A stretch of 64,000 nucleotides of DNA from positions 221,154,172 through 221,218,171 of the forward strand of contig CM056997.1 of assembly GCA_029891345.1 (NCBI GenBank), given 5' to 3'. Source of the DNA: Dryococelus australis (Eukaryota; Arthropoda; Insecta; Phasmatodea; Phasmatidae). The notes under the pieces are model-generated. The model did no database searches, had not been told where the DNA came from, and saw only the letters and a list, made by a program, of their open reading frames with translations. Below, one piece after another: positions 1-61,750 of the stretch (position 1 is its first letter; each line of letters opens with the position of its first letter). The position numbers and the translations under genes are program-made.

Positions 1-1315
1 ACGTTCGTCGGAAGGCAGTATGGTGTTTACTCGGCCAATGACGTTCGTCGGAAGGCAGTATGGTGTTTACAGGGCCAATGACGTTGTCGGAAGGCAGTAT
101 GGTGTTTACAGGGCCAATGACGTTGTCGGAAGGCAGTATGGTGTTTACTGGGCCAATGACGTTCGTCGGAAGGCAGTATGGTGTTTACTCGGCCAATGAC
201 GTTCGTCGGAAGGCAGTATGGGATTTACTGGGCCAATGACGTTCGTCGGAAGGCAGTATGGTGTTTACAGGGCCAATGACGTTGTCGGAAGGCAGTATGG
301 TGTTTACTGGGCCAATGACGTTCGTCGGAAGGCAGTATGGTGTTTACTCGGAAAATGACGTTCGTCGGAAGGCAGTATGGTGTTTACTGGGCCAATGACG
401 TTCGTCGGAAGGCAGTATGGTGTTTACTCGGCCAATGACGTTCGTCGGAAGGCAGTATGGGATTTACTGGGCCAATGACGTTCGTCGGAAGGCAGTATGG
501 TGTTTACTGGGCCAATGACGTTCGTCGGAAGGCAGTATGGTGTTTACTGGGCCAATGACGTTCGTCGGAAGGCAGTATGGTGTTTACTGGGCCAATGACG
601 TTCGTCGGAAGGTAGTATGGTGTTTACTGGGCCAATGACGTTCGTCGGAAGGCAGTATGGTGTTTACTGGGCCAATGACGTTCGTCGGAAGGCAGTATGG
701 TGTTTACTGGGCCAATGACGTTCGTCGGAAGGCAGTATGGTGTTTACAGGGCCAATGACGTTGTCGGAAGGCAGTATGGTGTTTACAGGGCCAATGACGT
801 TGTCGGAAGGCAGTATGGTGTTTACTCGGCCAATGACGTTCGTCGGAAGGCAGTATGGTGTTTACAGGGCCAATGACGTTGTCGGAAGGCAGTATGGTGT
901 TTACTGGGCCAATGACGTTCGTCGGAAGGCAGTATGGTGTTTACTGGGCCAATGACGTTCGTCGGAAGGCAGTATGGTGTTTACTGGGCCAATGACGTTC
1001 GTCGGAAGGTAGTATGGTGTTTACTGGGCCAATGACGTTCGTCGGAAGGCAGTATGGTGTTTACTGGGCCAATGACGTTCGTCGGAAGGCAGTATGGTGT
1101 TTACTGGGCCAATGACGTTCGTCGGAAGGTAGTATGGTGTTTACTGGGCCAATGACGTTCGTCGGAAGGCAGTATGGTGTTTACTGGGCCAATGACGTTT
1201 CGTCGGAAGGCAGTATGGTGTTTACTGGGCCAATGACGTTCGTCGGAAGGCAGTATGGTGTTTACTGGGCCAACGACGTTCGTCGGAAGGTAGTATGGTG
1301 TTTACTGGGCCAATG
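1..1315. repeat. 40-bp minisatellite, about 33 copies, open at the left edge
   Basis: Head-to-tail copies of a 40-bp unit fill this stretch; a 39-bp form lacks one C (GTTGTCGG instead of GTTCGTCGG). Every unit carries a CCAAT box followed directly by a CRE-like half site (CCAATGACGTT). Variants are linked: the six units with ACAGG before GCCAAT are each followed by the 39-bp form, so both changes belong to one true unit, and both GGATTTAC variants follow a CTCGG variant. The last unit decays at about 1310-1330. Short open frames here are by-products of the repeat. Confidence 0.97.
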
Positions 1316-8509: not shown

Positions 8510-8700
8510 TCAAAATTAATCCGTTTGGTGAGGCATAATCTGTGAGTCGAAGTGTTGCAATCGTGTAAAAATTGATGTGAGCTGTACTTGCAACCAGTGC
8601 AGAACGTGATGATAGACTTTACTATCAGCCATTCACAAACCATAGATGTGGTAACGTTCATATATCTCATTACCCATAGGGAAGATTGCCACAGTATTGG
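8510..8700 (+). repeat. Dispersed repeat R-C, copy 1
   Basis: Matches 21975-22195 in order: TGTGAGTCGAAGTGTT, AATCGTGTAA, GATGTGAGCTGTACTTG, CAACCAG, CATTCAC and GTGGTAACGTT. The 120-bp tandem array beginning at 8641 starts inside this repeat, so the array was seeded from it. Confidence 0.7.
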
Positions 8701-9000
8701 GTACTGATGTCTCGTTATGCATGTACAGCACTGGTTCTTTACGTGCATCATGCCCACGACCATAGATGTGGTAACGTTCATATATCTCATTACCCATAGG
8801 GAAGATTGCCACAGTATTGGGTACTGATGTCTCGTTATGCATGTACAGCACTGGTTCTTTACGTGCATCATGCCCACGACCATAGATGTGGTAACGTTCA
8901 TATATCTCATTACCCATAGGGAAGATTGCCACAGTATTGGGTACTGATGTCTCGTTATGCATGTACAGCACTGGTTCTTTACGTGCATCATGCCCACGAC
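8641..9000. repeat. Three identical 120-bp tandem units
   Basis: Units begin at 8641, 8761 and 8881 and read as identical, which implies very recent duplication (or an assembly artefact). Because 120 is divisible by three, frames stay open across the array and give a 205-codon minus frame with three 40-residue repeats; nothing else supports coding. Confidence 0.97.
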
Positions 9001-9638
9001 CATGGAGACTATCACTGAATGGGTAATAGCGTGAACTTTTGTCCTATGTTTATGGCTGGACCGGAGGCTGGCGCTCCGATAGACTCTGTGTCAGTAATTA
9101 AACAGCAGAAAACAAATTATCGAATAACATGCAACCCAGTAAAAGAGTGGAATATTATCCAACACAAATAACAACTAGCTTACATTTTCTGTCGAAACAA
9201 AAATATTGCACTGCGGAGTCTTGGAAACAAGTGACTAAACTGCAAATATATCCTCTTCGTCAAATTCCTACTCTCACCGGAATATAATTTGGTTAATTTG
9301 TTAAAATTGTTCATATATTTACAAAATAAAAAACTTTGCTAGAGGGTTTTAGCTCTTACTGTAAGAAGCTACATTACTTCAAGCTAACTTAGAGCGATGA
9401 TGTGCTGTGTATAACAATAGCGGAACTTCCCGAAGAGAAATTTTCGCCTTCTGACCTAACAAAAAGAGTAATGTATAATTTCCGTTTTATTCGGTTTATA
9501 TGTCTACGAAATGCCATAGGTTTATATAAAACTGAAAATCTTTTATGTTGTATATTTTAACCTCCCCATAGCAAATGTATGTAGCAATGTCATCACGAGA
9601 TGAAACGGCAACAATTAACGTGCCGTAGTAACACATGT
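9001..9638. other. AT-rich stretch, nothing recognised
   Basis: No repeat family, motif cluster or credible coding region is visible here. Confidence 0.45.
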
Positions 9639-10529
9639 CACTTTAATTATGGATCAGTGAGAGTTCCACAGTTTCTATCAGTTAACAGTACCCCACTGAT
9701 TATACAGCCACTTCAGTGAATCTAACTGATGAATCAGTAAGTAAATGCCAGGTTTCCTTCACTTACTGATTCACTGATATTTTCCACTGATTTCAATGTT
9801 TTTCAGTGATTTGTTTTTTTACTGATGGATCAGTTAAACAGTGTTTACAAATGGCTGTTAAATAAAGTGGATCAAGTGAAATAACAACTAATTAACATAT
9901 AAAACCAATAGAAATCTTAATAAAATATGTCTTGCCTTTCAAAACACCATTTTACGAAGTAATATGAACATTCAGCCTTTCATTCCAGTTTTACGTCTTT
10001 CATTCCGTTTTCATGCAATCATCACAGCGCTGTGTTTGAAGGTCCAAACTGCATATAATGTGAGGGATATAATGCACTCATATGTAACATTCGTTTCAAT
10101 AATCCTAGCAGTACCAATTAAACCAAAAACGAAAAGTAATAGCATACAATTTAAAACTACTCTCTTTCGATCAAGAAGTATAAGTCGAAGATTTTCCTCT
10201 TATCTACGAAATTGACCTGGTAGCGCAGATGGTAAGTTAACGGCCTAATGGCGTTGTGGAAGGATGCATGAGTTCAATCCCAGCCATCTCTGAAACTATT
10301 TTACTTTTTTAAATTACGGTAAATTTTGCGATATTAAGAGTAAACTATCGAAAATATATTTTTATTTCCTAATTATTTGGCTAAAATTTAATAAAAACAA
10401 TATTTAATTCGCCACTGCAGTTGGCCATCACTTATCCAATCACTGAAATTTTTTCACATCACTAATTCAGTCAGTTAAATTTTTTCACTGAAACAATCAG
10501 TGGTTTTCCACTGATTATAATTTAGAGTG
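9639..10529. mobile_element. Candidate non-autonomous CACTA-like element with ATCAGTG subterminal motifs
   Basis: The left end reads CACTTTAATTATGGATCAGTG and the reverse complement of the right end CACTCTAAATTATAATCAGTG, an imperfect inverted terminal repeat. ATCAGT/ACTGAT occurs about a dozen times, in both orientations, at 9651-9840, and again at 10435-10515. A 12-bp perfect stem GAATCAGTAAGT/ACTTACTGATTC lies at 9731-9775. CACTA/EnSpm elements have CACT ends and such subterminal arrays; no transposase is present and no target duplication is clear. A 21-bp direct duplication at the right edge (to 10550) blurs that boundary. Confidence 0.5.
10212..10290 (+). other. tRNA-like sequence (SINE head or tRNA relic)
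   Basis: A-box-like TGGTAGCGCAGATGGTA is followed 45 bp later by B-box-like GAGTTCAATCCC, the spacing of an internal Pol III promoter. Acceptor arms do not pair convincingly, so it is more likely a SINE head or pseudogene than a working tRNA. It lies inside the CACTA-like element. Confidence 0.4.
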
Positions 10530-10664
10530 CATTCATTCTAAATTAGAGTGCATTCATTCTAAATTCACTGTCCCTACGTTCTGTAGCCTTAGAGTCACTA
10601 GTTTTAAATTCACTAGTTCTGATGTCAGAGCTATTAAGTCAATTGCCAAAGAGTTAGTTAGTAA

Positions 10665-17228: not shown

Positions 17229-17552
17229 GGCCGGTGTCATACTGTGCGTTTGTGCCGCTGCGGCTAAACGGGGTGCCGTTTGACGGGATTGGCACAACAC
17301 ATTGTTGTAATGCGAGGTGTCACACTAGGGTGGCGTTCACTAACGTGACACCTCGCATTTACAACAATGTGTTGTGCCGCTGCGGCTAAACGGGGTGCCG
17401 TTTGACGGGATTGGCACAACACATTGTTGTAATGCGAGGTGTCACACTAGGGTGGCGTTCACTAACGTGACACCTCGCATTTACAACAATGTGTTGAGCA
17501 CGTCTCGTCAAACCGCAGCGTAGCGACAAAAACGCATAGTGTGACACAGGCC
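17229..17552. mobile_element. Harbinger-type MITE with TAA target duplication and internal tandem duplication
   Basis: Ends are inverted (GGCCGGTGTCA and, reversed, GGCCTGTGTCA, continuing through a TGCGTTT-containing stretch) and flanked by TAA at 17226-17228 and 17553-17555, the TWA duplication expected of PIF/Harbinger. Inside, a 122-bp segment is duplicated exactly (17252-17373, 17374-17495). Each copy contains a 26-bp inverted repeat (ACACATTGTTGT with GCGAGGTGTCA arms, one-base bulge), so the whole folds into nested hairpins. No transposase. Confidence 0.8.
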
Positions 17553-22413: not shown

Positions 22414-22804
22414 CTCTAGGCATTTGGCACTGATTTATTAAAGGGCACATTATGACTCATGCACAGCACGAAAATAATTGGTTAAACTACAACAAATTTT
22501 CTTCATTTCATTATAATCAACAAATTACTTATTCTTATTTTGTAACAACTTTTAAATGTATGCACACAGCTATATTATTATTATTAAATAACTTCCATTA
22601 ATGCTCCTAGAAAAGCTGTGATAACCGATTTAAATTTTGGATTCCAGAAAATACAGAACATGTTCAAAACGAAGATCTTGACTAAAAAGGGAAATTCAAG
22701 AAATTGAAAGATAAAATAACCGCGATTCTGACCTTACTATGACGTCACATAGCATTCAAGGAATTAAATTCGATAAAAAACTGAAAAAAAAAAGAAAAAA
22801 AATT

Positions 22805-25800
22805 GATGGTATGAAGGGGTGCAACATGTGAGAGCCGAGGGACATGGCGTAAAGGGCACGGGTATGTGAGCCCGGGTTACCGTGCGCTAACCGACCAGTG
22901 CAGCGGTCGCCGACGTGGCATGCTCACGCCACTACGAACGTGATGGTATGAAGGGGTGCAACATGTGAGAGCCGAGGGACATGGCGTAAAGGGCACGGGT
23001 ATGTGAGCCCGGGTTACCGTGCGCTAACCGACCAGTGCTGCGGTCGCCGACGTGTAGTGCCCATGCCACTACGAACGTGATGGTATGAAGGGGTGCAACA
23101 TGTGAGAGCCGAGGAACATGGCGTAAAGGGCACCGGTATGTGAGCCCGGGTTACAGTGCGCTAACCGACCAGTGCTGCGGTCGCCGACTTGGCATGCTCA
23201 CGCCACTACGAACGTGATGGTATGAAGGGGTGCAACATGTGAGAGCCGAGGGATATGGCGTAAAGGGCACGGGTATGTGAGCCCGGGTTACAGTGCGCTA
23301 ACCGACCAGTGCAGCGGTCGCCGACTTGGCATGCTCACACCACTACGAACGTGATGGTATGAAGAGGTGCAACATGTGAGAGCCGAGGGACATGGCGTAA
23401 AGGGCACGGGTATGTGAGCCCGGGTTACCGTGCGCTAACCGACCAGTGCTGCGGTCGCCGACGTGGTAGTGCTCACGCCACTACGAACGTGATGGTATGA
23501 AGGGGTGCAACATGTGAGAGCCGAGGAACATGGCGTAAAGGGCACGGGTATGTGAGCCCGGGTTACAGTGCGCTAACCGACCAGTGCAGCGGTCGCCGAC
23601 TTGGCATGCTCACGCCACTACGAACGTGATGGTATGAAGAGGTGCAACATGTGAGAGCCGAGGACATGGCGTAAAGGGCACGGGTATGTGAGCCCGGGTT
23701 ACAGTGCGCTCACCGACCAGTGCAGCGGTCACCGACTTGGCATGCTCACCCACTACGAACGTGATGGTATGAAGGGGTGCAACATGTGAGAGCCGAGGGA
23801 CATGGCGTAAAGGGCACGGGTATGTGAGCCCGGGTTACAGTGCGCTAACCGACCAGTGCAGCGGTCGCCGACTTGGCATGCTCACACCACTACGAACGTG
23901 ATGGTATGAAGAGGTGCAACATGTGAGAGCCGAGGGACATGGCGTAAAGGGCACGGGTATGTGAGCCCGGGTTACAGTGCGCTAACCGACCAGTGCAGCG
24001 GTCGCCGACTTGGCATGCTCACCCACTACGAACGTGATGGTATGAAGAGGTGCAACATGTGAGAGCCGAGGGATATGGCGTAAAGGGCACGGGTATGTGA
24101 GCCCGGGTTACCGTGCGCTAACCGACCAGTGCAGCGGTCGCCGACTTGGCATGCTCACGCCACTACGAACGTGATGGTATGAAGGGTGCAACATGTGAGA
24201 GCCGAGGGACATGGCGTAAAGGGCACGGGTATGTGAGCCCGGGTTACAGTGCGCTAAACCGACCAGTGCAGCGGTCGCCGACTAGGCATGCTCCAGCCCA
24301 CCTACGAACGTGATGGTATGAAGGGGTGCAACATGTGAGAGCCGAGGGACATGGCGTAAAGGGCACGGGTATGTGAGCCCGGGTTACCGTGCGCTAACCG
24401 ACCAGTGCTGCGGTCGCCGACGTGTAGTGCTCACGCCACTACGAACGTGATGGTAATGAAGGGGTGCAACATGTGAGAGCCGAGGGATATGGCGTAAAGG
24501 GCACGGGTATGTGAGCCCGGGTTACAGTGCGCTAACCGACCAGTGCAGCGGTCGCCGACTTGGCATGCTCACAACCACTACGAACGTGATGGTATGAAGG
24601 GGTGCAACATGTGAGAGCCGAGGGACATGGCGTAAAGGGCACGGGTATGTGAGCCCGGGTTACAGTGCGCTAACCGACCAGTGCTGCGGTCGCCGACGTG
24701 TAGTGCTCACGCCACTACGAACGTGATGGTATGAAGGGGTGCAACATGTGAGAGCCGAGGAACATGGCGTAAAGGGCACGGGTATGTGAGCCCGAGTTAC
24801 CGTGCGCTCACCGACCAGTGCAGCGGTCGCCGACGTGTAGTGCTCACACCACTACGAACGTGATGGTATGAAGAGGTGCATCATGTGAGAGCCGAGGGAC
24901 ATGGCGTAAAGGGCACGGGTATGTGAGCCCGGGTTACCGTGCGCTCACCGACCAGTGCAGCGGTCGCCGACTTGGCATGCTCACACCACTACGAACGTGA
25001 TGGTATGAAGGGGTGCAACATGTGAGAGCCGAGGGACATGGCGTAAAGGGCACGGGTATGTGAGCCCGGGTTACAGTGCGCTAACCGACCAGTGCAGCGG
25101 TCGCCGACTTGGCATGCTCACGCCACTACGAACGTGATGGTATGAAGAGGTGCAACATGTGAGAGCCGAGGGATATGGCGTAAAGGGCACGGGTATGTGA
25201 GCCCGGGTTACCGTGCGCTAACCGACCAGTGCAGCGGTCGCCGACTTGGCATGCTCACGCCACTACGAACGTGATGGTATGAAGGGGTGCAACATGTGAG
25301 AGCCGAGGGATATGGCGTAAAGGGCACGGGTATGTGAGCCCGGGTTACCGTGCGCTAACCGACCAGTGCTGCGGTCGCCGACGTGTAGTGCTCACGCCAC
25401 TACGAACGTGATGGTATGAAGGGGTGCATCATGTGAGAGCCGAGGGACATGAAGTAAAGTGCACGCGTATGTGAGCCCGGGTTACCGTGCGCTCACCGAC
25501 CAGTGCAGCGGTCGCCGACTTGGCATGCTCACGCCACTACGAACGTGATGGTATGAAGAGGTGCAACATGTGAGAGCCGAGGGATATGGCGTAAAGGGCA
25601 CGGGTATGTGAGCCCGGGTTTCCGGTTCGCTAACCGACCAGTGCAGCGGTCGCCGACTTGGCATGCTCACGCCACTACGAACGTGATGGTATGAAGGGGT
25701 GCAACATGTGAGAGCCGAGGGATATGGCGTAAAGGGCACGGGTATGTGAGCCCGAGTTACCGTGCGCTCACCGACCAGTGCAGCGGTCACCGACTTGGCA

Positions 25801-25956
25801 TGATCACGCCACTACGAACGTGATGGTATGAAGAGGTGCAACATGTGAGAGCCGAGGGACATGGAGTAAAGGGCACTGGTTTGTCAGCCCGGGTTACCGT
25901 GCGTTCACAGACCAGTGCAGTGGTCGCCGACGTGTAGTGCTCACGCCACTACGAAC
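22805..25956. repeat. 137-bp GC-rich satellite, about 23 copies
   Basis: Unit landmarks: GATGGTATGAAGG, CAACATGTGAGAGCCGAGG, CACGGGTATGTGAGCCCGGG, CGACCAGTGC-GCGGTCGCCG and CACTACGAACGT. Units fall in two main forms: CTTGGCATGCTCACGCCA (majority) and CGTGTAGTGCTCACGCCACTAC (about seven). Each form can still make a small hairpin (TGGC/GCCA or GTAGTG/CACTAC). GC content is far above the flanks. It starts right after an A-rich tract (22781-22803). The 102-codon minus frame is a repeat by-product. Confidence 0.97.
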
Positions 25957-28866: not shown

Positions 28867-28949
28867 AATTATGAAAGTTTGAGGAAATTATATAAAACTA
28901 ACTCTCATTCACTCTAAATGCCAAAGCAAAAATATACGTTCAGGAAAAC

Positions 28950-29157
28950 ATTCGAACTCGCACTGCCCGCTCTGTAACCTGATGTATCAGAAAAATGAAA
29001 CACATTTTCACACAATATACCGTGCTTACAGCCTCTCATGTTCATCGCTATCATTCGAACTCGCACTGCCCGCTCTGTAACCTGATGTATCAGCAAAATG
29101 AAACACATTTTCACACAATATACCGTGCTTACAGCCTCTCATGTTCATCGCTATCAT
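28950..29157. repeat. 103-bp tandem duplication, two copies
   Basis: ATTCGAACTCGCACTGCCCG recurs 103 bp apart, and the copies are almost identical (one A/C difference after GTATCAG noticed). The second copy ends at about 29157 before ATTCCAATG. Confidence 0.9.
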
Positions 29158-29570
29158 TCCAATGTACCAGTCAGACACTCACATGCAAATTAGACATTCA
29201 AAAGTGGTGAAAATTTAACCATCGCAATTATTGAAAAACAATGTAACTGAAAATAGCAGTATTGAAGACTGTGAAAGGATAAATTAAATGCCTCAATTTC
29301 AGGATTTCATATGTGATTGATAACGACTTCCTTTAATTTATACTGCCTAAGCTCACCGAGTGTTAGTGAATTCAGCCGGTTGAAGCCATGGGAAACAAAA
29401 TGCCTCAATTAAAAATAACTCCACGACCACCGATGCATATTACTTGCTATGGTAAACGTTAGGAGAGGACAATTTCACGCACGATAACTGAAAATCATGT
29501 ATAAGTAGAGCATGAAAATTACTCTAAATTGCACCATTACGTGCACAGCTTATTTTCTTCTCACAAAATA
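29158..29570. other. AT-rich stretch, nothing recognised
   Basis: No feature seen between the 103-bp duplication and the CACTG-type terminus at 29571. Confidence 0.4.
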
Positions 29571-34496: not shown

Positions 34497-34990
34497 ATTT
34501 ATCTGTAATAAGAACGTTACAGAATCATATAATGTTTCGTGGGATTTCACAAATTGGTTATTATCATGTGCTACGTTAACAATATTGGCACTGGTCAAAT
34601 TAAAGTTGTATTAAGTTGACATTAATTTATCTTTAAAATATCAACAATAAAATAAGTGACAATAGGAAATCTTTATAAAAAATATTAACACAATGCTAAA
34701 TACACCACAGCTAATAAAAGCTCTTTGACATTAGCCAAAAGTTTAAAAGTGTAAATAGTTTGGATGTATTTAATAAGAGTAAACTGTGCCCCTAACAAGG
34801 CCATCAAAGGCCATACATGGTCTTATTCGTGGCAACTACATGATAACTTATTATTTTTACAGCATTATATTATTACATTTATGAAATACTTTCCCATATG
34901 CTTGAAGAGCACTAATTATAGTTTAAGAACATATATAAATAAGTATTTTTAAATTCTACTTACCGCCAATATTCACACAGATGTGGATAC

Positions 34991-35220
34991 AAAACATTAT
35001 ACATCGCTCTCAAGATGGTCTACAAGGAGCAATAGCAAAACATTATACATCGCTCTCAAGATGGTCTACAAGGAGCAATAGCAAAACATTATACATCGCT
35101 CTCAAGATGGTCTACAAGGAGCAATAGCAAAACATTATACATCGCTCTCAAGATGGTCTACAAGGAGCAATAGCAAGACATTATACATCGCTCTCAAGAT
35201 GGTCTACAAGGAGCAATAGC
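34991..35220. repeat. 46-bp tandem array, five copies, inside the pogo element
   Basis: Five units (AAAACATTATACATCGCTC, AAGATGGTCTACAAGGAGC, AATAGC) are nearly identical; only an A-to-G change in the last unit was noticed. They lie between the transposase relic and the element's right terminal repeat. Confidence 0.97.
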
Positions 35221-35548
35221 AAGACGTTCAACACACAGCCACCAGATACTGCTCTATTGCGGATCAAGTAAGTGCTGCCATATCTGGCATTTTCCATGTA
35301 CTTTTCAAGATATCGATAGGTGGCCTTATTAAAGAATGGAATTATTTGGATCAACTACCTTAGTAATTTTACGCCATTCTATATAAAGTTAGTTGTAAAT
35401 AGTATATGTCATTTGACTAATTTGTAAGATAAATTTTCTTGGACGTAGAGTAAATAAACATTGGCATATGTAGGTGTAAAATTACATCGATGTCAGTGGA
35501 GACACTGCTGTCACATTTAGCGTAAAACTATACCATTTTTTTACAGTG

Positions 35549-39410: not shown

Positions 39411-40194
39411 GTCGGCCGTTAGTTTAAGGGATTACGTACTAAGCATACTGAATTTATTAACATCTCTACGTCTGATTCGGCGCCGTCCTATAATTTTTCT
39501 CCAATTTATTAATGGACACAGCTCACTGTTACGCAATCGAAGTGAATTTCCTAACATAGTATCACTCCAGTTCGTTTCGGCACATTCCATCTACACGAGT
39601 ATTTCCATATAGCAATTTCATACGAAGACAATGTTTTTTTCTTTTTAAGAATGAATTTGGGTGGGCAATGAATGCCAGAATTCTGCCACAACGTGTGTTT
39701 TGAAGTGAACACGAATAAGACCGACAAATGCAGTAGCAAGACAGAAACGATGATGCAACGTTCGCAGGGTGATCCATTCCGACACGATAACTCCATGTAA
39801 TAAATATGGTTTCGTTCGACCGCATTTACGACTGCGATGGAGCATGACCTTGAATTGGCGCAGTGCATACGTGGGGTGTGGGTGAGCTCCTGCGGAGAGC
39901 GGCAGCGAGCGAAGAACTTCGGGTAGTGTGTCTCGTGACTGCGATGTGCTACGACGCTGAGTTTCGAACCAAAAGAAATATCTCTTCTAGATCTGTCGAT
40001 TTACGTCATAACAAGTTAAGTATATATTTCGTTACTTTCATTGCATTACCATATACCAAAGAAAAAATTACCCTATAACGTAGGCGTTGCCATGTAAAAC
40101 CCACACTTCTGTCCCAGCCACAGCCACACGTCAATTGTTTTGTTTTGTTCACCGGAGGTGTCGGTGGGTGACTTAGAAGACAGAAGTGAGCGAA
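39411..40194. other. No recognised gene
   Basis: Several overlapping minus frames of 66-105 codons in different frames at 39551-39868 show no family resemblance and no consistent coding signal. Confidence 0.4.
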
Positions 40195-40400
40195 TGGAGA
40201 GATTCGGGTGGCTCTTAACGTCGAGGTCTTGAGAACCGATGAGGGTGAAGCGAGGTGAGTATGTAACAGAGCCAGAATACAAACCCGCCGACCAGTTGTA
40301 ACTTCCAGCACGATTACCACATCCAAAAATCCGGTTTGCAATTCCGCCGGTTTGCATTGGTGGAGGCGAGTAGTCTGGCTACCACAACACCGCAGCCCCC
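40195..40400 (-). mobile_element. tRNA-derived SINE S1, parent of the adjoining minisatellite
   Basis: Minus strand reads GGGGCTGCGGTGTTGTGG, TAGCCAGACTACTCGCC, CGGATTTTTGGATGTGG, CTGGTCGGCGGG, TACTCACCTCGCTTCACCC, TCATCGGTTCTCAAGACC and GTTAAGAGCCACCCGAATC. Its first 33 bases plus about 15 bp of flank are what the neighbouring 48-bp array repeats. The body between GGCGGG and TGTATTCTGGCTC is shortened. Confidence 0.9.
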
Positions 40401-41568
40401 AATCGTCGGAGATAGGAGTAGTCTGGCTACCACAACACCGCAGCCCCCAATCGTCGGAGATAGGAGTAGTCTGGCTACCACAACACCGCAGCCCCCAATC
40501 GTCGGAGATAGGAGTAGTCTGGCTACCACAACACCGCAGCCCCCAATCGTCGGAGATAGGAGTAGTCTGGCTACCACAACACCGCAGCCCCCAATCGTCG
40601 GAGATAGGAGTAGTCTGGCTACCGAACACCGCAGCCCCCAATCGTCGGAGATAGGAGTAGTCTGGCTACCACAACACCGCAGCCTCCAATCGTCGGAGAT
40701 AGGAGTAGTCTGGCTACCACAACACCGCAGCCCCCAATCGTCGGAGATAGGAGTAGTCTGGCTACCACAACACCGCAGCCCCCAATCGTCGGAGATAGGA
40801 GTAGTCTGGCTACCACAACACCGCAGCCCCCAATCGTCGGAGATAGGAGTAGTCTGGCTACCGAACACCGCAGCCCCCAATCGTCGGAGATAGGAGTAGT
40901 CTGGCTACCACAACACCGCAGCCTCCAATCGTCGGAGATAGGAGTAGTCTGGCTACCACAACACCGCAGCCCCCAATCGTCGGAGATAGGAGTAGTCTGG
41001 CTACCACAACACCGCAGCCTCCAATCGTCGGAGATAGGAGTAGTCTGGCTACCACAACACCGCAGCCCCCAATCGTCGGAGATAGGAGTAGTCTGGCTAC
41101 CACAACACCGCAGCCTCCAATCGTCGGAGATAGGAGTAGTCTGGCTACCACAACACCGCAGCCCCCAATCGTCGGAGATAGGAGTAGTCTGGCTACCACA
41201 ACACCGCAGCCCCCAATCGTCGGAGATAGGAGTAGTCTGGCTACCACAACACCGCAGCCCCCAATCGTCGGAGATAGGAGTAGTCTGGCTACCGAACACC
41301 GCAGCCCCCAATCGTCGGAGATAGGAGTAGTCTGGCTACCACAACACCGCAGCCCCCAATCGTCGGAGATAGGAGTAGTCTGGCTACCACAACACCGCAG
41401 CCTCCAATCGTCGGAGATAGGAGTAGTCTGGCTACCACAACACCGCAGCCCCCAATCGTTGGAGATAGGAGTAGTCTGGCTACCACAACACCGCAGCCTC
41501 CAATCGTCGGAGATAGGAGTAGTCTGGCTACCACAACACCGCAGCCCCCAATCGTCGGAGATAGGAGT
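40368..41568. repeat. 48-bp minisatellite, about 25 copies, built from a SINE head
   Basis: Unit: GAGTAGTCTGGCTACC, ACAACACCGCAGCCCCC, AATCGTCGGAGATAG. The first two pieces are the inverted head of the adjoining SINE, including its Pol III A-box region; the third is flank. Variants: 46-bp units with CCGAACACC at about 40621, 40861 and 41291, and CAGCCTCC units. A CCGAACACC unit followed by a CAGCCTCC unit occurs twice 240 bp apart, pointing to five-unit block duplication. Long frames on both strands (up to 257 codons) exist only because 48 is a multiple of three. Confidence 0.97.
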
Positions 41569-41859
41569 TGTCACCCACGAAAGTAAGCGCGCAGTACAGT
41601 TGTCTGTCCCCCCCCCCCCGAACCCTTCCATCCCTTTTTCCCCTCACAATCTGGACTAGAGTGTCGTCACTTAGTACCTACATAGAGTAGAGACGGAATG
41701 GCAAGGCGGACGAGTTAATCTGTCGTGGGATGAACATCATGCTCGTGGAGGCTCACTCTCTGAGATCTTCCCGCGACTTGAGGACCAGCCAGAGGGAGGT
41801 GCGTCTGAGAGTGCGATGGGATAATGATAGCTGAGGTGCGGCGACTATCCGCAACTCGT
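41569..41859. other. Spacer with poly(C)
   Basis: A CCCCCCCCCC run at about 41607-41617; nothing else recognised. Confidence 0.4.
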
Positions 41860-43430: not shown

Positions 43431-43892
43431 ATGAGTCACGTGAGTGTAACGACGCGCTCCGTGGGCTGTCGTCGTGTACAGTAGTTACGGGATCACAGGC
43501 GGAGCTGGAAAAGTACAAGAGTAAGGTCGCAGATTGTCGACTTTCGCCCCGGCAGGCTAGTCGTTGGGACAGGGGTGAGGTCGTGCGCCGTGGTGCCTGA
43601 GGGGGGACGCTGGCAAAAGCACGTACTGTCCGCGTGCCAGCTCTGAAGCCCTAGCAGGAATGCGACCTTGGAACGATAAGCCGGCCACGCTATAAGACTG
43701 TACTATCGTACAAAGAAAACATTCACTCACCTCAAGGCAATGGGGTAGCATTGGAGGAATCACTACTGTCGTCAAGACGTACAACGATACTGCCAATTAC
43801 ATCTGATACAACACCGTCCCTTTCCCCAGTATCCAGTCTCAAGCTTCTGTACGTGGCCACAGTACTCTTCCTAGTCGGTCTTGGTTACACTG

Positions 43893-44651
43893 TCCTACAG
43901 ATGACTGCGGGAGGTTAGGAGCAAGCTTCTCGGTAACCCACTTTATGTAATTAACACTGTTCATTTGGCCGTGATAGTCGCCACTGGCAATGCCGGCTTT
44001 ATAGACAAGGAGAGCATTTTCGATATATCCGTCAATACCCCCAGCGCGTACTACAACTAATCGGTTACCCGAATTCACATTAGCTTGTATGCCAAACACT
44101 TGTTCGAATTGCCAATATTTACCAAACGTTAAATTACCGTCTATCCATGTCACGTCTATGTAGATAATTTGTTTCCCGCCTTGTCTATGCCGTTTCAACT
44201 AGATAGTCGTGACGCAAGATATGATGTGAGGTCTCTCAATTAGTATCTTCCTGTGACTTTAAGATTTTTTTCACCTAGTTGTTTTACCACCTTACGCAAC
44301 GTAGTATGTGACCTCGGAAATTATATTTTCTCCTTTACCATGAGCAGTAATTTTTGCAATGGTAAGGACACGTTTCTACTGAATATAAAAATCCTGAATC
44401 GTCCGCCGAATTACGTCATCAGTATTGACGACAGTATATTCCGGCCTAGTTTTCAGTCGTTTACCCAGTGTGAGCAAGCTACCGCTCTCCCCACTGTTAT
44501 CTAGTTCCTTCTGTTCCTTCCGTATCCTTTTAACTAACGCCTGCGACACTCCAGCGTAGTCTGCAGCTCTTGCTGTCGCCTGGTTTACTGTGAAACCATA
44601 ACCTATCTGTTTCGCCTCTTCACCATACTTTGCAACTATCTTACGATTCTC
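43893..44651 (-). pseudogene. DDE_3 (Tc1/mariner-IS630-like) transposase pseudogene, truncated
   Basis: The relic reads in one minus-strand frame from RKIVAKYGEEAKQIG near 44651 to about 43893. It has an N-terminal helix-turn-helix with VSQALVKRIRKEQ, a DDVIRRTIQDFYIQ segment, an RKILIERPHI segment (about 44250) and the DDE core start IYIDVTWIDG (about 44160), with GYIENALLVYK and GDYHGQMNSVNYIKW. Five or so in-frame stops, the first at 44376, break it. The core Asp of IYID is present, but the following Glu is Val. Homology ends after LPQSSV, where the second Asp motif (usually DNAPYH) should be, so the catalytic half is gone. It would have been an insect DNA-transposon transposase. Confidence 0.85.
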
Positions 44652-45112
44652 CGGCCCTCGAATGCATGACGGTGTTTTTCTTCTGGACAGACATAACACT
44701 CCGCAGCTAAATGTGTTACTGCGGATCGTACATGCGTGACAATGCTCGCCCGCTGTCACTCGCTGTCTTGCCTTCTCCTTTCCTCATGCCCCGCGGTTTC
44801 AGAGGTGGCACGCGGACAGTAGCTCGGCCGGCGAGCGACTAGTGGCTACGCTCGCATCCAAACACCAGTCGCCGTTACATAAACTAAACACGAGTGAGAC
44901 GTATTCCCGCGGTATTGACTCGCTCATGGGGAGTACAACTGTCAAGTCAAGTGGCCTGTGGTAATGGACGTGTTTGTTCACATTCGAATTTTCAACACAC
45001 CCACCAATCTACATGAATACAATACTTCAAAGGCTGTTGACGATTAACTGAGCATTCTGAAAAAGCCTGTTTAACATTTACTTTCATTCTCATTTCGTAT
45101 ATTTCCGCAGTA
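44652..45112. other. Flank of the transposase relic with possible transposon terminus
   Basis: ATTCGAATTTTCAACACACC (about 44983) matches 15813 and could be the upstream terminus of the DDE_3 element. No matching inverted end was found beyond 43.8 kb, consistent with the truncation. Confidence 0.3.
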
Positions 45113-47879: not shown

Positions 47880-48962
47880 TGACTTTATATTTGGCTATAT
47901 TGGATTTTTAATATAGCTCTGCTTGATCCGACTGTTCATTTGTAAGTGTAAGATTAATGTTGCTGAAAGTGTTGATTGTCCACAGTCTTTTTGAAGTGTG
48001 TTTCTGATGTCTGGACATGTAAAATTTTCTTAAGTGGCTGAAATAATGCTAGACATGTAGGGCATATATGTGCTTAGAATAAGTATAATTTTTATCTGGA
48101 CTATGGTAGATTAGGTTATGTTATTGCTAATTTTTCCTGGCCTTTGGTATGTTAATGTAGGATAGATTTTTTTGGGCTTTAGTAGGTTAAGATATGTTAT
48201 TTTGACAGATGGTAAGAATGTTTGTGTTGCGGGTTGGCTTGGACTATACATTTGATTGGTACACTTGGGTTAGCATAGGTGGTATGTTAAGCCATATGTT
48301 TTCCAGTATATCTGTATTGTGATTGTTGAAGTATGTCGAATGATGTGGACAGTAGAATGTGTGTCAGCAAGTCCTGTAATTCTAATGTATGCTTGAGTTA
48401 AAGTGTTTGGTATGTTTGGTCAGTGTATTTTGACTGGTGTCAGTCGGCATAGCGGATAATATGAGAAGAAGTTGATTTTGTAACTGATATGGGCTGTATG
48501 TTTGCTTTGTATAGCCTATGTGGACGAATGGTTGAGGTATTCTAGAGTTATAGCCTGTGGTATGGTTGGTAGGAATAAATGGTGTTGCTTGGTAGAACAA
48601 GTAGACTGGTTATTAGGTTATGGGCTGGCCTCAGCTGTATAGTTGCTTAGTACACTTGAGTTATGATGGATATTGTGCTTGGTGTAAGTGGGTGGTGCGG
48701 TTGATTAGTAGGACTGAATTTTTCTTTGGTTATAGGAGATGGGGTGTTGGGTGGTGTGGTATGACTTGGGTCATAATGGATGGTTGGTATGGTGGTATGG
48801 TGGTCAGTATATATTTGGCTGGTGTCGATCAGTAGAGCAGAAAGTATGAACAATGAGTAAATTTTTTGGCAAGGTCAGTGTGGACTGAATGGTTGAGGTA
48901 TGCCTGAGTTATAGTAAGGGGTGTGAACGATGATTATATATCGTCTGGTATTTGGTTGGTAT
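47880..48962. repeat. C-poor, T/G-rich stretch with a degenerate 360-bp repeat
   Basis: The plus strand is strikingly poor in C over about 1 kb. GGACGAATGGTTGAGGTAT with following GAGTTATAG at about 48522, and GGACTGAATGGTTGAGGTAT at 48882, show a degenerate duplication of about 360 bp; GACTGGTGTCAGTCGGCATA (48432) and GGCTGGTGTCGATCAG (48819) support it. No gene. Confidence 0.6.
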
Positions 48963-48964
48963 AG

Positions 48965-49524
48965 CAGATGGCATGCATGAATTATAATGGCTGGTGTGGT
49001 ACCTGTGTGAGGGAATATAACAGATGGCATGCATGAGTTACAATGGCTGGTGTGGTACCTGTGTGAGGGAATATAACAGATGGCATGCATGAGTTACAAT
49101 GGCTGGTGTGGTACCTGTGTGAGGGAATATAACAGATGGCATGCATGAGTTACAATGGCTGGTGTGGTACCTGTGTGAGGGAATATAACAGATGGCATGC
49201 ATGAATTACAATGGCTGGTGTGGTACCTGTGTGAGGGAATATAACAGATGGCATGCATGAGTTACAATGGCTGGTGTGGTACCTGTGTGAGGGAATATAA
49301 CAGATGGCATGCATGAGTTACAATGGCTGGTGTGGTACCTGTGTGAGGGAATATAACAGATGGCATGCATGAGTTACAATGGCTGGTGTGGTACCTGTGT
49401 GAGGGAATATAACAGAAGGCATGCATGAGTTACAATGGCTGGTGTGGTACCTGTGTGAGGGAATATAACAGATGGCATGCATGAATTACAATGGCTGGTG
49501 TGGTACCTGTGTGAGGGAATATAA
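48965..49524. repeat. 56-bp minisatellite, ten copies
   Basis: Unit landmarks: AGATGGCATGCATGA, GTTACAATGGCTGG, TGTGGTACCTGTGTGAGGG, AATATAAC. Units are nearly identical (GAGTT/GAATT variants, one AGAAGG). GCATGC and GGTACC palindromes lie in each unit. The open minus frames (67-97 codons) are by-products. Confidence 0.97.
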
Positions 49525-54230: not shown

Positions 54231-56319
54231 GGGGACAGAGCTTACTCGCTGACTTAGTACTATAAGAGGAGCTGACGAGAGGAAAATGACGCTCGTTGTG
54301 ACCAAAACCCTATAAACTTATCATGCTGTTTCTCTTAAACACCCATTCCAACGATTTCATATTTTGGGTACTGACGCACAGTTTCTTCCTTGCTATCACT
54401 GAGCAATTACTTTTTAGAAATAACGTAAAACAATTGAAGAAAAAATATTTACTAAACTTTTGCGTGAAATTCCAGAAAAGATGAAGCGTGAAAAGTAAGA
54501 CGCTATAAATTTTAATACTGTTAAAAAATAAAAATGTTATGATTTTGCTGCAAGAACACTGAAACATCTTACGAAAATGTTGGGTGATCCCATTCTACTG
54601 ATAGTTAGTTATTTCAAAATTTGGTAATTGCCATTATCTCGCCATAAAATAACTATGTTAAATTAGAATAATTGATGATTTAAAAAAATATATTTTATAA
54701 AATAGTTAAAAGACTACATCCAGCCATCGGGGGTGTGGCCCCCTGCTTTAGATGATAGAGTGGGGCAGACAAGGTCAGCGAGGGACGAGAAAACAGAAAT
54801 GAAGTGACCGGTTAAGTTTCATGTAGTACCACTTAAATTAGACGACAAGCATAAGTTTTAGAGCGTATATTGGTCTATATGAGCTGCACTAGTAATGGTG
54901 TTCAGGCTTACTGACACTCAGGTGTAATGTTACCCATATGCGTGAAAAATGGTTGTGTAATGCTATAATAACTGATTGTGCTTTATCATCTGATAATTTT
55001 CTGAGAAATATAGCAAATTTGTTATGGAAAACCTTAATCCATTAAACAGGAATTTAATATGCAGATGAGTATTGTACCGTTATTTTATGTTTTTAAACAC
55101 ACCCTCTTACCTTTTAAATATACAATAAAGAAAAGAACTGAAAGTGTAGACGTGTTAATTCTGACTAAGCAACTCCCACTAAAACCTCTCGTATGGAAGC
55201 CAAGAACGTAAGAAATGGTATAGAGAATGCTTTGGGTGCATGAGGCACCTGCCTTCCAGATAGGTTTATCTATCATTTGAGCTGAAAAGAGAAAACGCCC
55301 CTACCCCTGTATGTTACGTGAGTGGAATATCGGAATGATTAGGGGAAGCAGGCTGCATCGTGAAAATATTTAATAAAGAGGCGTAAATATAGCATAACTT
55401 AATAACTAATTCTCACTACGTAACTAAATTAGATGATGCAAAACCAGTTGTATTAATATTCCTAGCAGCACAATTGCAAATCGAAAATAATTCATTTACA
55501 TATAATTATAATAGTTTTTATACATGAATCTATTAATATAGCTTTAATGCAATATTGGTATAAAATCAACAAATAAAACTGGATATATAATGTTTTTCTG
55601 TTCAATGCACTTTTCCCTATTTAGTGTGTGAGTTACGTCAGTACGAGTCTGTTACATTCTGGTGATTTTTTTACCACTTTAGGCCGACTACAGAAGAGTC
55701 GCAATATTGCAATTTAATATAACTCTTAAATTCGAATTTCCACTGAAAAGGCAGTCAATAAGGTGAGGGTTGACACACAGAAACACACAGGTTCACACAC
55801 AAACACCAATTAGGTATATATATACATATACTGTATATATATACAGACATGAAGATAATTGCATACGGCTTTATTTCCTAAGGAAAGTAAACTAATAAAA
55901 GGCACACACTGCGTGCGCCGGCCTGACGTAGCGGCGGCTGGGTAGTGGTGGGTAATCGCCCGCGCTGTGACTGGCCGCGCGTAAATATATCTGTGTAGTT
56001 GTACCAGATGACGTTGTATTGAGAATATAGGACATAGTACTGATACTGAAAAGCGTGCATAACTCTGCACAGGTCTCATGAAGACATCAAATTTCCTACA
56101 AATGCCTCGGATCGTGTGTAGACGAGAGCCGACTGGCGTCGAAGGCATTCCCCATTCCCGGCGGCCGCTCACTCAAAACGTCAGCACGTACGCGGACGGC
56201 AACAGGAAACCCCTGAACAGGATATTTACGTGCCACGTGCCAGCAACTTCCTCGATCTATAGTCGCCGACGGCACGCGCTAGCTGGCTGGCTGTGAACAC
56301 TGCCACCATACAACAGGTA
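54231..56319. other. Mostly AT-rich stretch, no recognised gene
   Basis: Microsatellite-like ACACAC and TATATA tracts near 55775-55850. A GC-richer part at 55910-56290 has a 120-codon minus frame without similarity. Confidence 0.4.
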
Positions 56320-57463
56320 TGTACGCACTGCTCCTACCTTGTGCCCACTCAGCCTCGTAGTGTACAGTACCTGCCAAAGATAACCTCTCATGTACACACT
56401 ACCCCTACCTTGTGCCCACTCAGCCTCGTAGTGTACAGTACCTGCCAAAGATAACCTCTCATGTACACACTGCCCCTACCTTGTGCCCACTCAGCCTCGT
56501 AGTGTACAGTACCTGCCAAAGATAACCTCTCATGTACACACTGCTCCTACCTTGTGCCCACTCAGCCTCGTAGTGTACAGTACCTGCCAAAGATAACCTC
56601 TCATGTACACACTGCCCCTACCTTGTGCCCACTCAGCCTCGTAGTGTACAGTACCTGCCAAAGATAACCTCTCATGTACGCACTGCCCCTACCTTGTGCC
56701 CACTCAGCCTCGTAGTGTACAGTATCTGCCAAAGATAACCTCTCATGTACACACTGCCCCTACCTTGTGCCCACTCAGCCTCGTAGTGTACAGTATCTGC
56801 CAAAGATAACCTCTCATGTACACACTGCCCCTACCTTGTGCCCACTCAGCCTCGTAGTGTACAGTACCTGCCAAAGATAACCTCTCATGCACGCACTGCC
56901 CCTACCTTGTGCCCACTCAGCCTCGTCGTGTACAGTACCTGCCAAAGATAACCTCTCATGTACACACTGCCCCTACCTTGTGCCCACTCAGCCTCGTAGT
57001 GTTCAGTACCTGCCAAAGATAACCTCTCATGTACACACTGCCCCTACCTTGTGCCCACTAAGCCTCGTAGTGTACAGTACCTGCCAAAGATAACCTCTCA
57101 TGTACACACTGCCCCTACCTTGAGCCCACTCAGCCTCGTAGTGTACAGTACCTGCCAAAGATAACCTCTCATGTACACACTGCCCCTACCTTGTGCCCAC
57201 TCAGCCTCGTAGTGTACAGTACCTGCCAAAGATAACCTCTCATGTACACACTGCCCCTACCTTGTGCCCACTCAGCCTCATAGTGTACAGTACCTGCCAA
57301 AGATAACCTCTCATGTACACACTGCCCCTACCTTGTGCCCACTCAGCCTCGTAATGTACAGTACCTGCCAAAGATAACCTCTCATGTACACACTGCCCCT
57401 ACCTTGTGCCCACTCAGCCTCGTAGTGTACAGTACCTGCCAAAGATAACCTCTCATGTACACA
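56320..57463. repeat. 71-bp minisatellite, about 16 copies
   Basis: Unit landmarks: TGTACACACTGCCCCTACC, TTGTGCCCACTCAGCC, TCGTAGTGTACAGTACC, TGCCAAAGATAACCTCTCA. GTACAC and GTGTAC form short inverted arms within each unit. Units differ by single bases (TGCTCC/TGCCCC, GTACGC/GTACAC, AGTATC/AGTACC). Confidence 0.97.
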
Positions 57464-59527: not shown

Positions 59528-59829
59528 TTGAACCATTATATGACACACCTTGATTGATTATAAGCCATTATTTGACACACTTGATTGACAATGAACCATT
59601 ATATGAGACACCTTGATTGACTATGAACCATTATTACGACACACCTTGATTGACTATGAACCATTATTACGACACACCTTGATTGACTATGAATCATTAT
59701 ATGACACACCTTGATTGACTATGAACCAATATATGACACACCATGACTGACTATGAACCATTTGATGACACACCTTTATTGACTATGAATCATTATGTGA
59801 CTCCCTTTGATTGACTATGAAGCAATAAC
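59528..59829. repeat. Degenerate 32-bp tandem array, nine to ten copies
   Basis: TTGATTGACTATGAACC, ATTATATGACACACC units with frequent substitutions and 1-2-bp indels; older than the other arrays in the window. Confidence 0.93.
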
Positions 59830-61333: not shown

Positions 61334-61750
61334 GCTTTGAAAGAACCGTTGTTACCTATGTAGGAGTACTTTGAAAGAACCGCTGTTACCTATGTAGGAG
61401 TACTTTGAAAGAACCGTTGTTACCTATGTAGGAGTACTTTGAAAGAACCGTTGTTACCTATGTAGGAGTACTTTGAAAGAACCGTTGTTTCATATGTAGG
61501 AGTACTCTGAAAGAACCGTTGTTACCTATGTAGGAGTACTTTGAAAGAACCGTTGTTACCTATGTAGGAGTACTTTGAAAGAACCGTTGTTACCTATGTA
61601 GGAGTACTCTGAAAGAACCGTTGTTACCTATGTAGGAGTACTCTGAAAGAACCGTTGTTGCCTATGTAGGATTACTTTGAAAGAACCGTTGTTACCTATG
61701 TAGGAGTACTTTGAAAGAACCGTTGTTACCTATGTAGGAGTACTCTGAAA
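61334..61750. repeat. 34-bp minisatellite, about 12 copies
   Basis: Unit TACTTTGAAAGAACCG, TTGTTACCTATGTAGGAG; nearly identical copies with T/C changes in ACTTTG and one TTTCATATG variant. Confidence 0.97.

Follow-up and report, generated by a model that had tools for sequence, protein, structure and literature searches.

The model of Haber and Louis (Haber and Louis, 1998), as it is described in PMC3389668 and PMC6947457, holds that minisatellites are born between direct repeats of 5-10 bp. Mobile elements are one source of such arrays. In the human genome, 7,276 of 31,472 minisatellites are counted as derived from mobile elements in PMC3389668; in the same account, direct repeats of 5-20 bp flank only 300 of the mobile-element-derived arrays, and no more than about 6% may be explained by the two established models of minisatellite birth. 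Minisatellites derived from Alu with flanking short repeats are among those described there (PMC3389668; Jurka and Gentles, 2006, as described in that source and in PMC6947457), and VNTRs derived from Alu and from mouse B1 (Bois et al., 1998) are listed in PMC6947457. Squamate reptiles are described as carrying satellites derived from SINEs, one gecko variant of which includes ~30 nt of unknown origin (PMC10702118).

Here, we characterized a minisatellite that adjoins a tRNA-derived SINE, termed S1, in a 64,000-nucleotide stretch (the window) of the genome of the stick insect Dryococelus australis. A narrow search confined to open papers found no published description of the locus. We put at roughly 85% the probability that the array arose in situ from the SINE head and its flank, by way of a short direct repeat common to both, and subsequently expanded to 25 units. 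The locus is of interest because it records cleanly, at a single site, the start of a minisatellite, with a mismatch in the seed repeat that marks the probable first junction.

Composition of the unit and the 5′ boundary of the SINE

TRF describes the array at 40368-41572 as having a period of 48, 25.2 copies and 97% matches. Direct parsing resolved it into 25 units followed by 8 terminal nucleotides, beyond which the sequence is no longer that of the array (Table 1). An earlier, sequence-only reading of this DNA had described a 25-copy minisatellite with a 48-bp unit made of the first 33 bases of the SINE plus about 15 bp of flank, and both statements were borne out, the 33 bases proving to be 32 SINE bases and one extra G. 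Of the 32 SINE bases, 26 are identical to the head of the S1 consensus. The D. australis assembly was built from error-prone long reads, and its authors note that short-read polishing might correct indel errors (PMC10268593); errors are therefore possible in the copy number and in the 47-bp units.

Table 1. Features of the array and the adjoining SINE (positions within the window; a dot indicates that no strand is assigned).
Feature	Position	Strand	Basis or remark
Minisatellite, 25 head-to-tail units (22 x 48 bp, 3 x 47 bp)	40368..41564	.	TRF and direct parsing
47-bp units of the array	starts 40608, 40847, 41278		Direct parsing
S1, tRNA-derived SINE, profile 1-249 of 250	40194..40399	-	Profile alignment
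SINE head (first 32 bp and one extra G), also within unit 1	40368..40400	-	
Non-SINE 15 bp of unit 1 (presumed former 5′ flank of the SINE), present in every unit	40401..40415	.	
GAGTTGTC, outer flank copy of the putative seeding direct repeat, at the outer edge of the array	41565..41572	.	7/8 to unit start GAGTAGTC
Five-unit block, units 3-7, identical to next block	40464..40702	.	
Five-unit block, units 8-12, identical to preceding block	40703..40941	.	

As in SINE-derived satellites, the SINE continues at one end of the array, which passes into the SINE body at 40367. Such satellites also share one unit among many loci, and this was not seen here: a whole-genome DNA search with two units, in which very common words were skipped and only the best candidates were scored, listed 13 matches, 12 of them in the focal array and one, a short match, on C2. 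Among these listed matches there was thus no array lying elsewhere without a SINE.

Self-comparison of the window showed that the sequence adjoining the array belongs to a set of dispersed copies. An iterated profile of these, run on the window together with 30 further stretches of the genome that were mostly fetched for likeness to the focal SINE rather than at random, yielded a 250-bp consensus with 58 matches. The 84 kb made up of the window and its neighboring sequence hold 16 matches. The consensus head carries A and B boxes matching at 11/11 positions each, as judged with motifs that are nearly identical to those in PMC9191728. When the focal copy is set against the consensus, 173 of 205 aligned positions are identical, for a K2P distance of 0.18, and 47 columns are gaps; both the B-box region and another internal stretch are missing from it. 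Because the S1 consensus contains the head bases of the unit, the idea that the head is unrelated to the SINE was rejected. Insertion of the SINE into a pre-existing array was likewise rejected, since SINE sequence is present in every unit.

Two observations locate the 5′ end of S1. The 30 bases upstream of the head show no conservation among 41 placed copies (39 of which are neither focal nor from C2), and target-site duplications were found at 13 of 30 near full-length copies at p<0.05 and at 9 of 30 at p<0.01, using a test in which the 5′ copy had to end 0-3 nt before SINE base 1. These duplications measure 8-16 bp, mostly 11-13, and one of the p<0.01 set is a T run. These results fix the 5′ end of S1 with good confidence, which leaves the 15 bp of the unit beyond the SINE. 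Dispersed copies with a consensus and defined ends, A and B boxes and target-site duplications together make S1 a tRNA-derived SINE. A target-site duplication was also sought at the focal copy, and none was detectable (p = 0.25).

The 15 bp might instead belong to the element, as a transduced leader that extends a minor S1 subfamily at its 5′ end, which would make the unit mobile-element sequence throughout. What speaks for this is a SINE on C2 in which AACTCCTATTTCAGACGA precedes the GGGGCTGCGG head and agrees at 16 of 18 positions with the focal leader, AACTCCTATYTCMGACGA. However, the SINE-bearing stretch is present there as six same-strand copies between C2 208520760 and 208668026, spaced by ~26-31 kb, in what looks like a large tandem segmental duplication. 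The three of these loci that were fetched (L039, L055, and L056) are 86-90% alike over ~1.6 kb and thus look like a single insertion, duplicated, and are counted as one. Furthermore, leader and 3′ flank agree at 8 of 9 positions in the C2 SINE, as expected of a target-site duplication (p = 0.04, for one locus with a hand-chosen SINE end), and no leader is conserved among the 39 other placed S1 heads, where unanchored comparison with the 20-nt focal leader gave at best 12/20 (L022 and L030). We accordingly regard a transduced leader as unlikely. Alignment of the C2 and focal flanks revealed no evident likeness beyond the leader stretch. The resemblance is probably due to chance, for which a hand estimate gives a few per cent if S1 has hundreds of thousands of copies, a number itself extrapolated by hand from the window; it may nevertheless be a small hint that the 15 bp are not purely random flank.

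The first junction and growth of the array

The two edges of the array carry related octamers. The unit start, GAGTAGTC, and the flank copy, GAGTTGTC, agree at 7 of 8 positions, with four nucleotides (GAGT) before the mismatch and three after it. Read along the SINE strand, GACAACTC stands at the outer edge and is followed by the 15 bp of flank and by the SINE head, whose last bases are GACTACTC; the octamers are thus one unit apart. GACTACTC corresponds to SINE bases 25-32 and differs from the flank octamer at a single base. The locus therefore has the arrangement of the Haber-Louis model, a segment between direct repeats of 5-10 bp, albeit with an imperfect repeat. The earlier reading had supposed a sequence common to the junction; a short repeat does stand at both edges, but only GAGT is unbroken within it. 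All 25 units begin with the SINE version of the octamer, and the flank version occurs only at the outer edge. This distribution points to a first junction within the common GAGT (plus strand), although later homogenization could blur the picture. The edge octamers and the unit versions also support the proposal, likewise made in the earlier reading, of slippage or unequal crossing-over between the SINE and its flank.

The most likely course of events would begin with an old S1 insertion adjoining a flank that carried, by chance, a 7/8 match to the octamer at SINE bases 25-32. The two octamers would then have mediated a slippage, template switch or unequal exchange that doubled the intervening 48 bp, made up of the 15 bp of flank and the SINE head. 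Whole-unit slippage or unequal exchange could subsequently have raised this duplication to 25 units, including at least one copying event that involved a block of five.

The units bear on the later part of this history. They fall into four types, namely 15 majority units, six with one C-to-T change, three with a 1-bp deletion and a substitution, and one with another C-to-T change, and together show 13 differences from the majority unit over 1200 positions. Compared with the K2P distance of the adjoining SINE, this low divergence indicates that the expansion of the array, or its last homogenization, is much later than the SINE insertion. A young or recently homogenized minisatellite is the best explanation of the array. 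Units 3-7 and units 8-12 are exactly the same over 239 bp each, so the earlier claim of a five-unit block duplication stands as far as the exact copy is concerned. Its significance against shuffled unit order is modest (p = 0.025 from 20,000 shuffles, in a test whose definition was settled on once the data had been inspected), and the longest repeated run of units gave p = 0.23. The 47-bp unit type is preceded by three majority units at each of its occurrences.

Neighboring arrays and their edges

Arrays were scored in the window, in 29 SINE-containing stretches, in one stretch from C2 and in the adjacent 20 kb, using a period of at least 20 and a match of at least 93%; arrays below these cut-offs (e.g., 59529-59821) were left unscored. 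Twenty array rows were reduced to 14 scored rows by removal of five that touch a sequence end and of a 287-bp duplicate row of the focal array, and then to 12 by removal of two indel-rich rows from L058, to the right of the window (remainders 63 and 0). Ten of the 12 lie in the window. The terminal remainder of the focal array was set by hand to 8 according to the parsed units, as opposed to 5 by length modulo period.

The 12 arrays have a mean terminal remainder of 5.8 nt, whereas 560 blunt duplications generated by simulation have a mean of 1.25 (Mann-Whitney p = 2.7e-8); the ten window arrays alone gave p = 3.2e-7, and all 14 scored rows gave p = 7.4e-8. By eye, 11 of the 12 have repeats at their edges that measure 3-10 nt, three of them only 3 nt, and some of these repeats contain one mismatch or two; ACCAT, CATTC, ATGTACRCA, and CGTAGAARG are examples. 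One of the 12, with 2.5 copies of 21 bp at 10514-10565, may simply hold a half unit. The sole scored array in which no edge repeat was found lies at 22804-25956; with 23 units of 137 bp spanning 3.2 kb, it exceeds all others of the window in length.

These data bear on a second alternative, in which the first duplication was blunt or random, as by end joining or homology-free template switching, and the near-match of the octamers is a coincidence. By itself, the focal octamer is suggestive of a repeat-mediated duplication: its two versions share just four nucleotides before the mismatch, and 2.5% of the simulated blunt duplications gave a remainder of at least 8, both of which leave some room for a blunt event. 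The edge repeats of the scored arrays argue against one, for the focal array fits a local tendency, an argument weakened by the three 3-nt repeats, a length reached in 14% of the simulations. On balance, we consider a blunt first duplication quite unlikely and prefer seeding through the shared octamer.

Several individual arrays deserve mention. Those at 8639-9003, 17250-17496, 28949-29159, 34990-35222, 48960-49524, 56319-57463, and 61335-61750 of the window, and at 4454-4627 of L057, have edges that share a direct repeat of 3-9 nt, in some cases with one mismatch, and would fit a shared mode of origin in which short repeats mediate duplication. Two of them, at 8639-9003 (three 120-bp copies) and 17250-17496 (two 122-bp copies), match at 100%, an identity that could reflect either very recent duplication or assembly error. 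A 40-bp array spans the left edge of the window as one array of 47.9 copies and 1908 bp (window 1-1315 together with L057 9408-10000). It contains a nearly whole extra unit, so that its ends break the rule of short remainders, and TRF also reads it with a higher-order period of 357 bp. Just to the right of the window, an array rich in indels extends over 3.2 kb (L058 5198-8363), with units of ~80 bp and higher-order periods of 160 and 240; most of its TRF rows lack a near-whole copy number, which likewise goes against the rule.

Most of the scored nearby arrays end in short direct repeats, which suggests a general and testable mutation process in the large genome of this stick insect. It is a tentative extension, and one that we would not favor at present, that duplication between direct repeats of 3-10 nt seeds a large share of the dense minisatellites of the genome; SINE edges would then add partner repeats, and the focal octamer would fix one first junction.

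The SINE does not appear to have a special part in this process. The window and its neighboring sequence, 84 kb in all, contain 16 merged arrays. Only the focal one touches an S1 match, compared with a mean of 2.8 when S1 positions were shifted at random (P(>=1) = 0.98). Four of the 16 lie within 200 bp of S1 vs. a mean of 3.9 under shifts (P = 0.59), so clustering of arrays at SINEs was rejected, and five lie within 500 bp vs. 5.4. In view of this lack of enrichment, S1 looks like one target or bystander among many rather than a cause, within what is a small sample. The unit does include a SINE head, but there is no sign that the element contributed more to the array than a single short repeat.

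Function and relation to known systems

A Pol III-active array would be expected to hold an A box and a B box in each unit. The unit scores at most 9/11 against the A box, and 3702 of 5000 shuffled units do at least as well. Against the B box, the top scores are 6/11 in the units and 8/11 in the focal SINE. With the A box at chance level and the B box absent, the earlier description of an array of A-box-like sites is not supported. No Rfam family reached its gathering score in the window, and no tRNA was called there by a scan run at the bacterial setting. Eight ORFs around the array contained no Pfam match above the cut-off; one of them, over the array, gave a sub-threshold match of 17.1 bits vs. 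a cut-off of 22.3. Several frames stay open over the array because the 48-bp unit is a multiple of three; given this and the Pfam result, the open frames were rejected as a gene. The array is probably without function. That it is retained for some function, be it as clustered binding sites for Pol III factors or as a source of small RNA, would agree with the derivation of the units from the A-box region of a tRNA-derived SINE, but is made very improbable by the box scores and by the Rfam, tRNA, and Pfam results given above. Elsewhere in the window, open frames at 43839-44783 on the minus strand resemble what we take to be pieces of a decayed DNA-transposon transposase; a Pfam search with two of these frames found no match at E 0.01.

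Among described systems, the route proposed by Haber and Louis is the closest. In their model, as in the focal array, a segment flanked by short direct repeats is duplicated and then expanded. The focal repeat differs in being imperfect, so that the first junction may be placed to within 4 nt. The minisatellites derived from Alu and mouse B1 likewise use a fragment of a SINE as the tandem unit, in the case of Alu through short direct repeats, whereas the focal unit spans the edge of the SINE together with its flank and comes from an insect tRNA-derived SINE. The satellites described in squamates resemble the locus in that part of a tRNA-derived SINE stands in tandem, with a longer terminal unit reaching the SINE end, but they form families of loci with up to 1000 units (PMC10702118), in contrast to the one locus of 25 units found here. 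The focal array thus represents the already known Haber-Louis route of minisatellite birth, to which it adds an insect tRNA-derived SINE and a mismatch that serves to place the junction.
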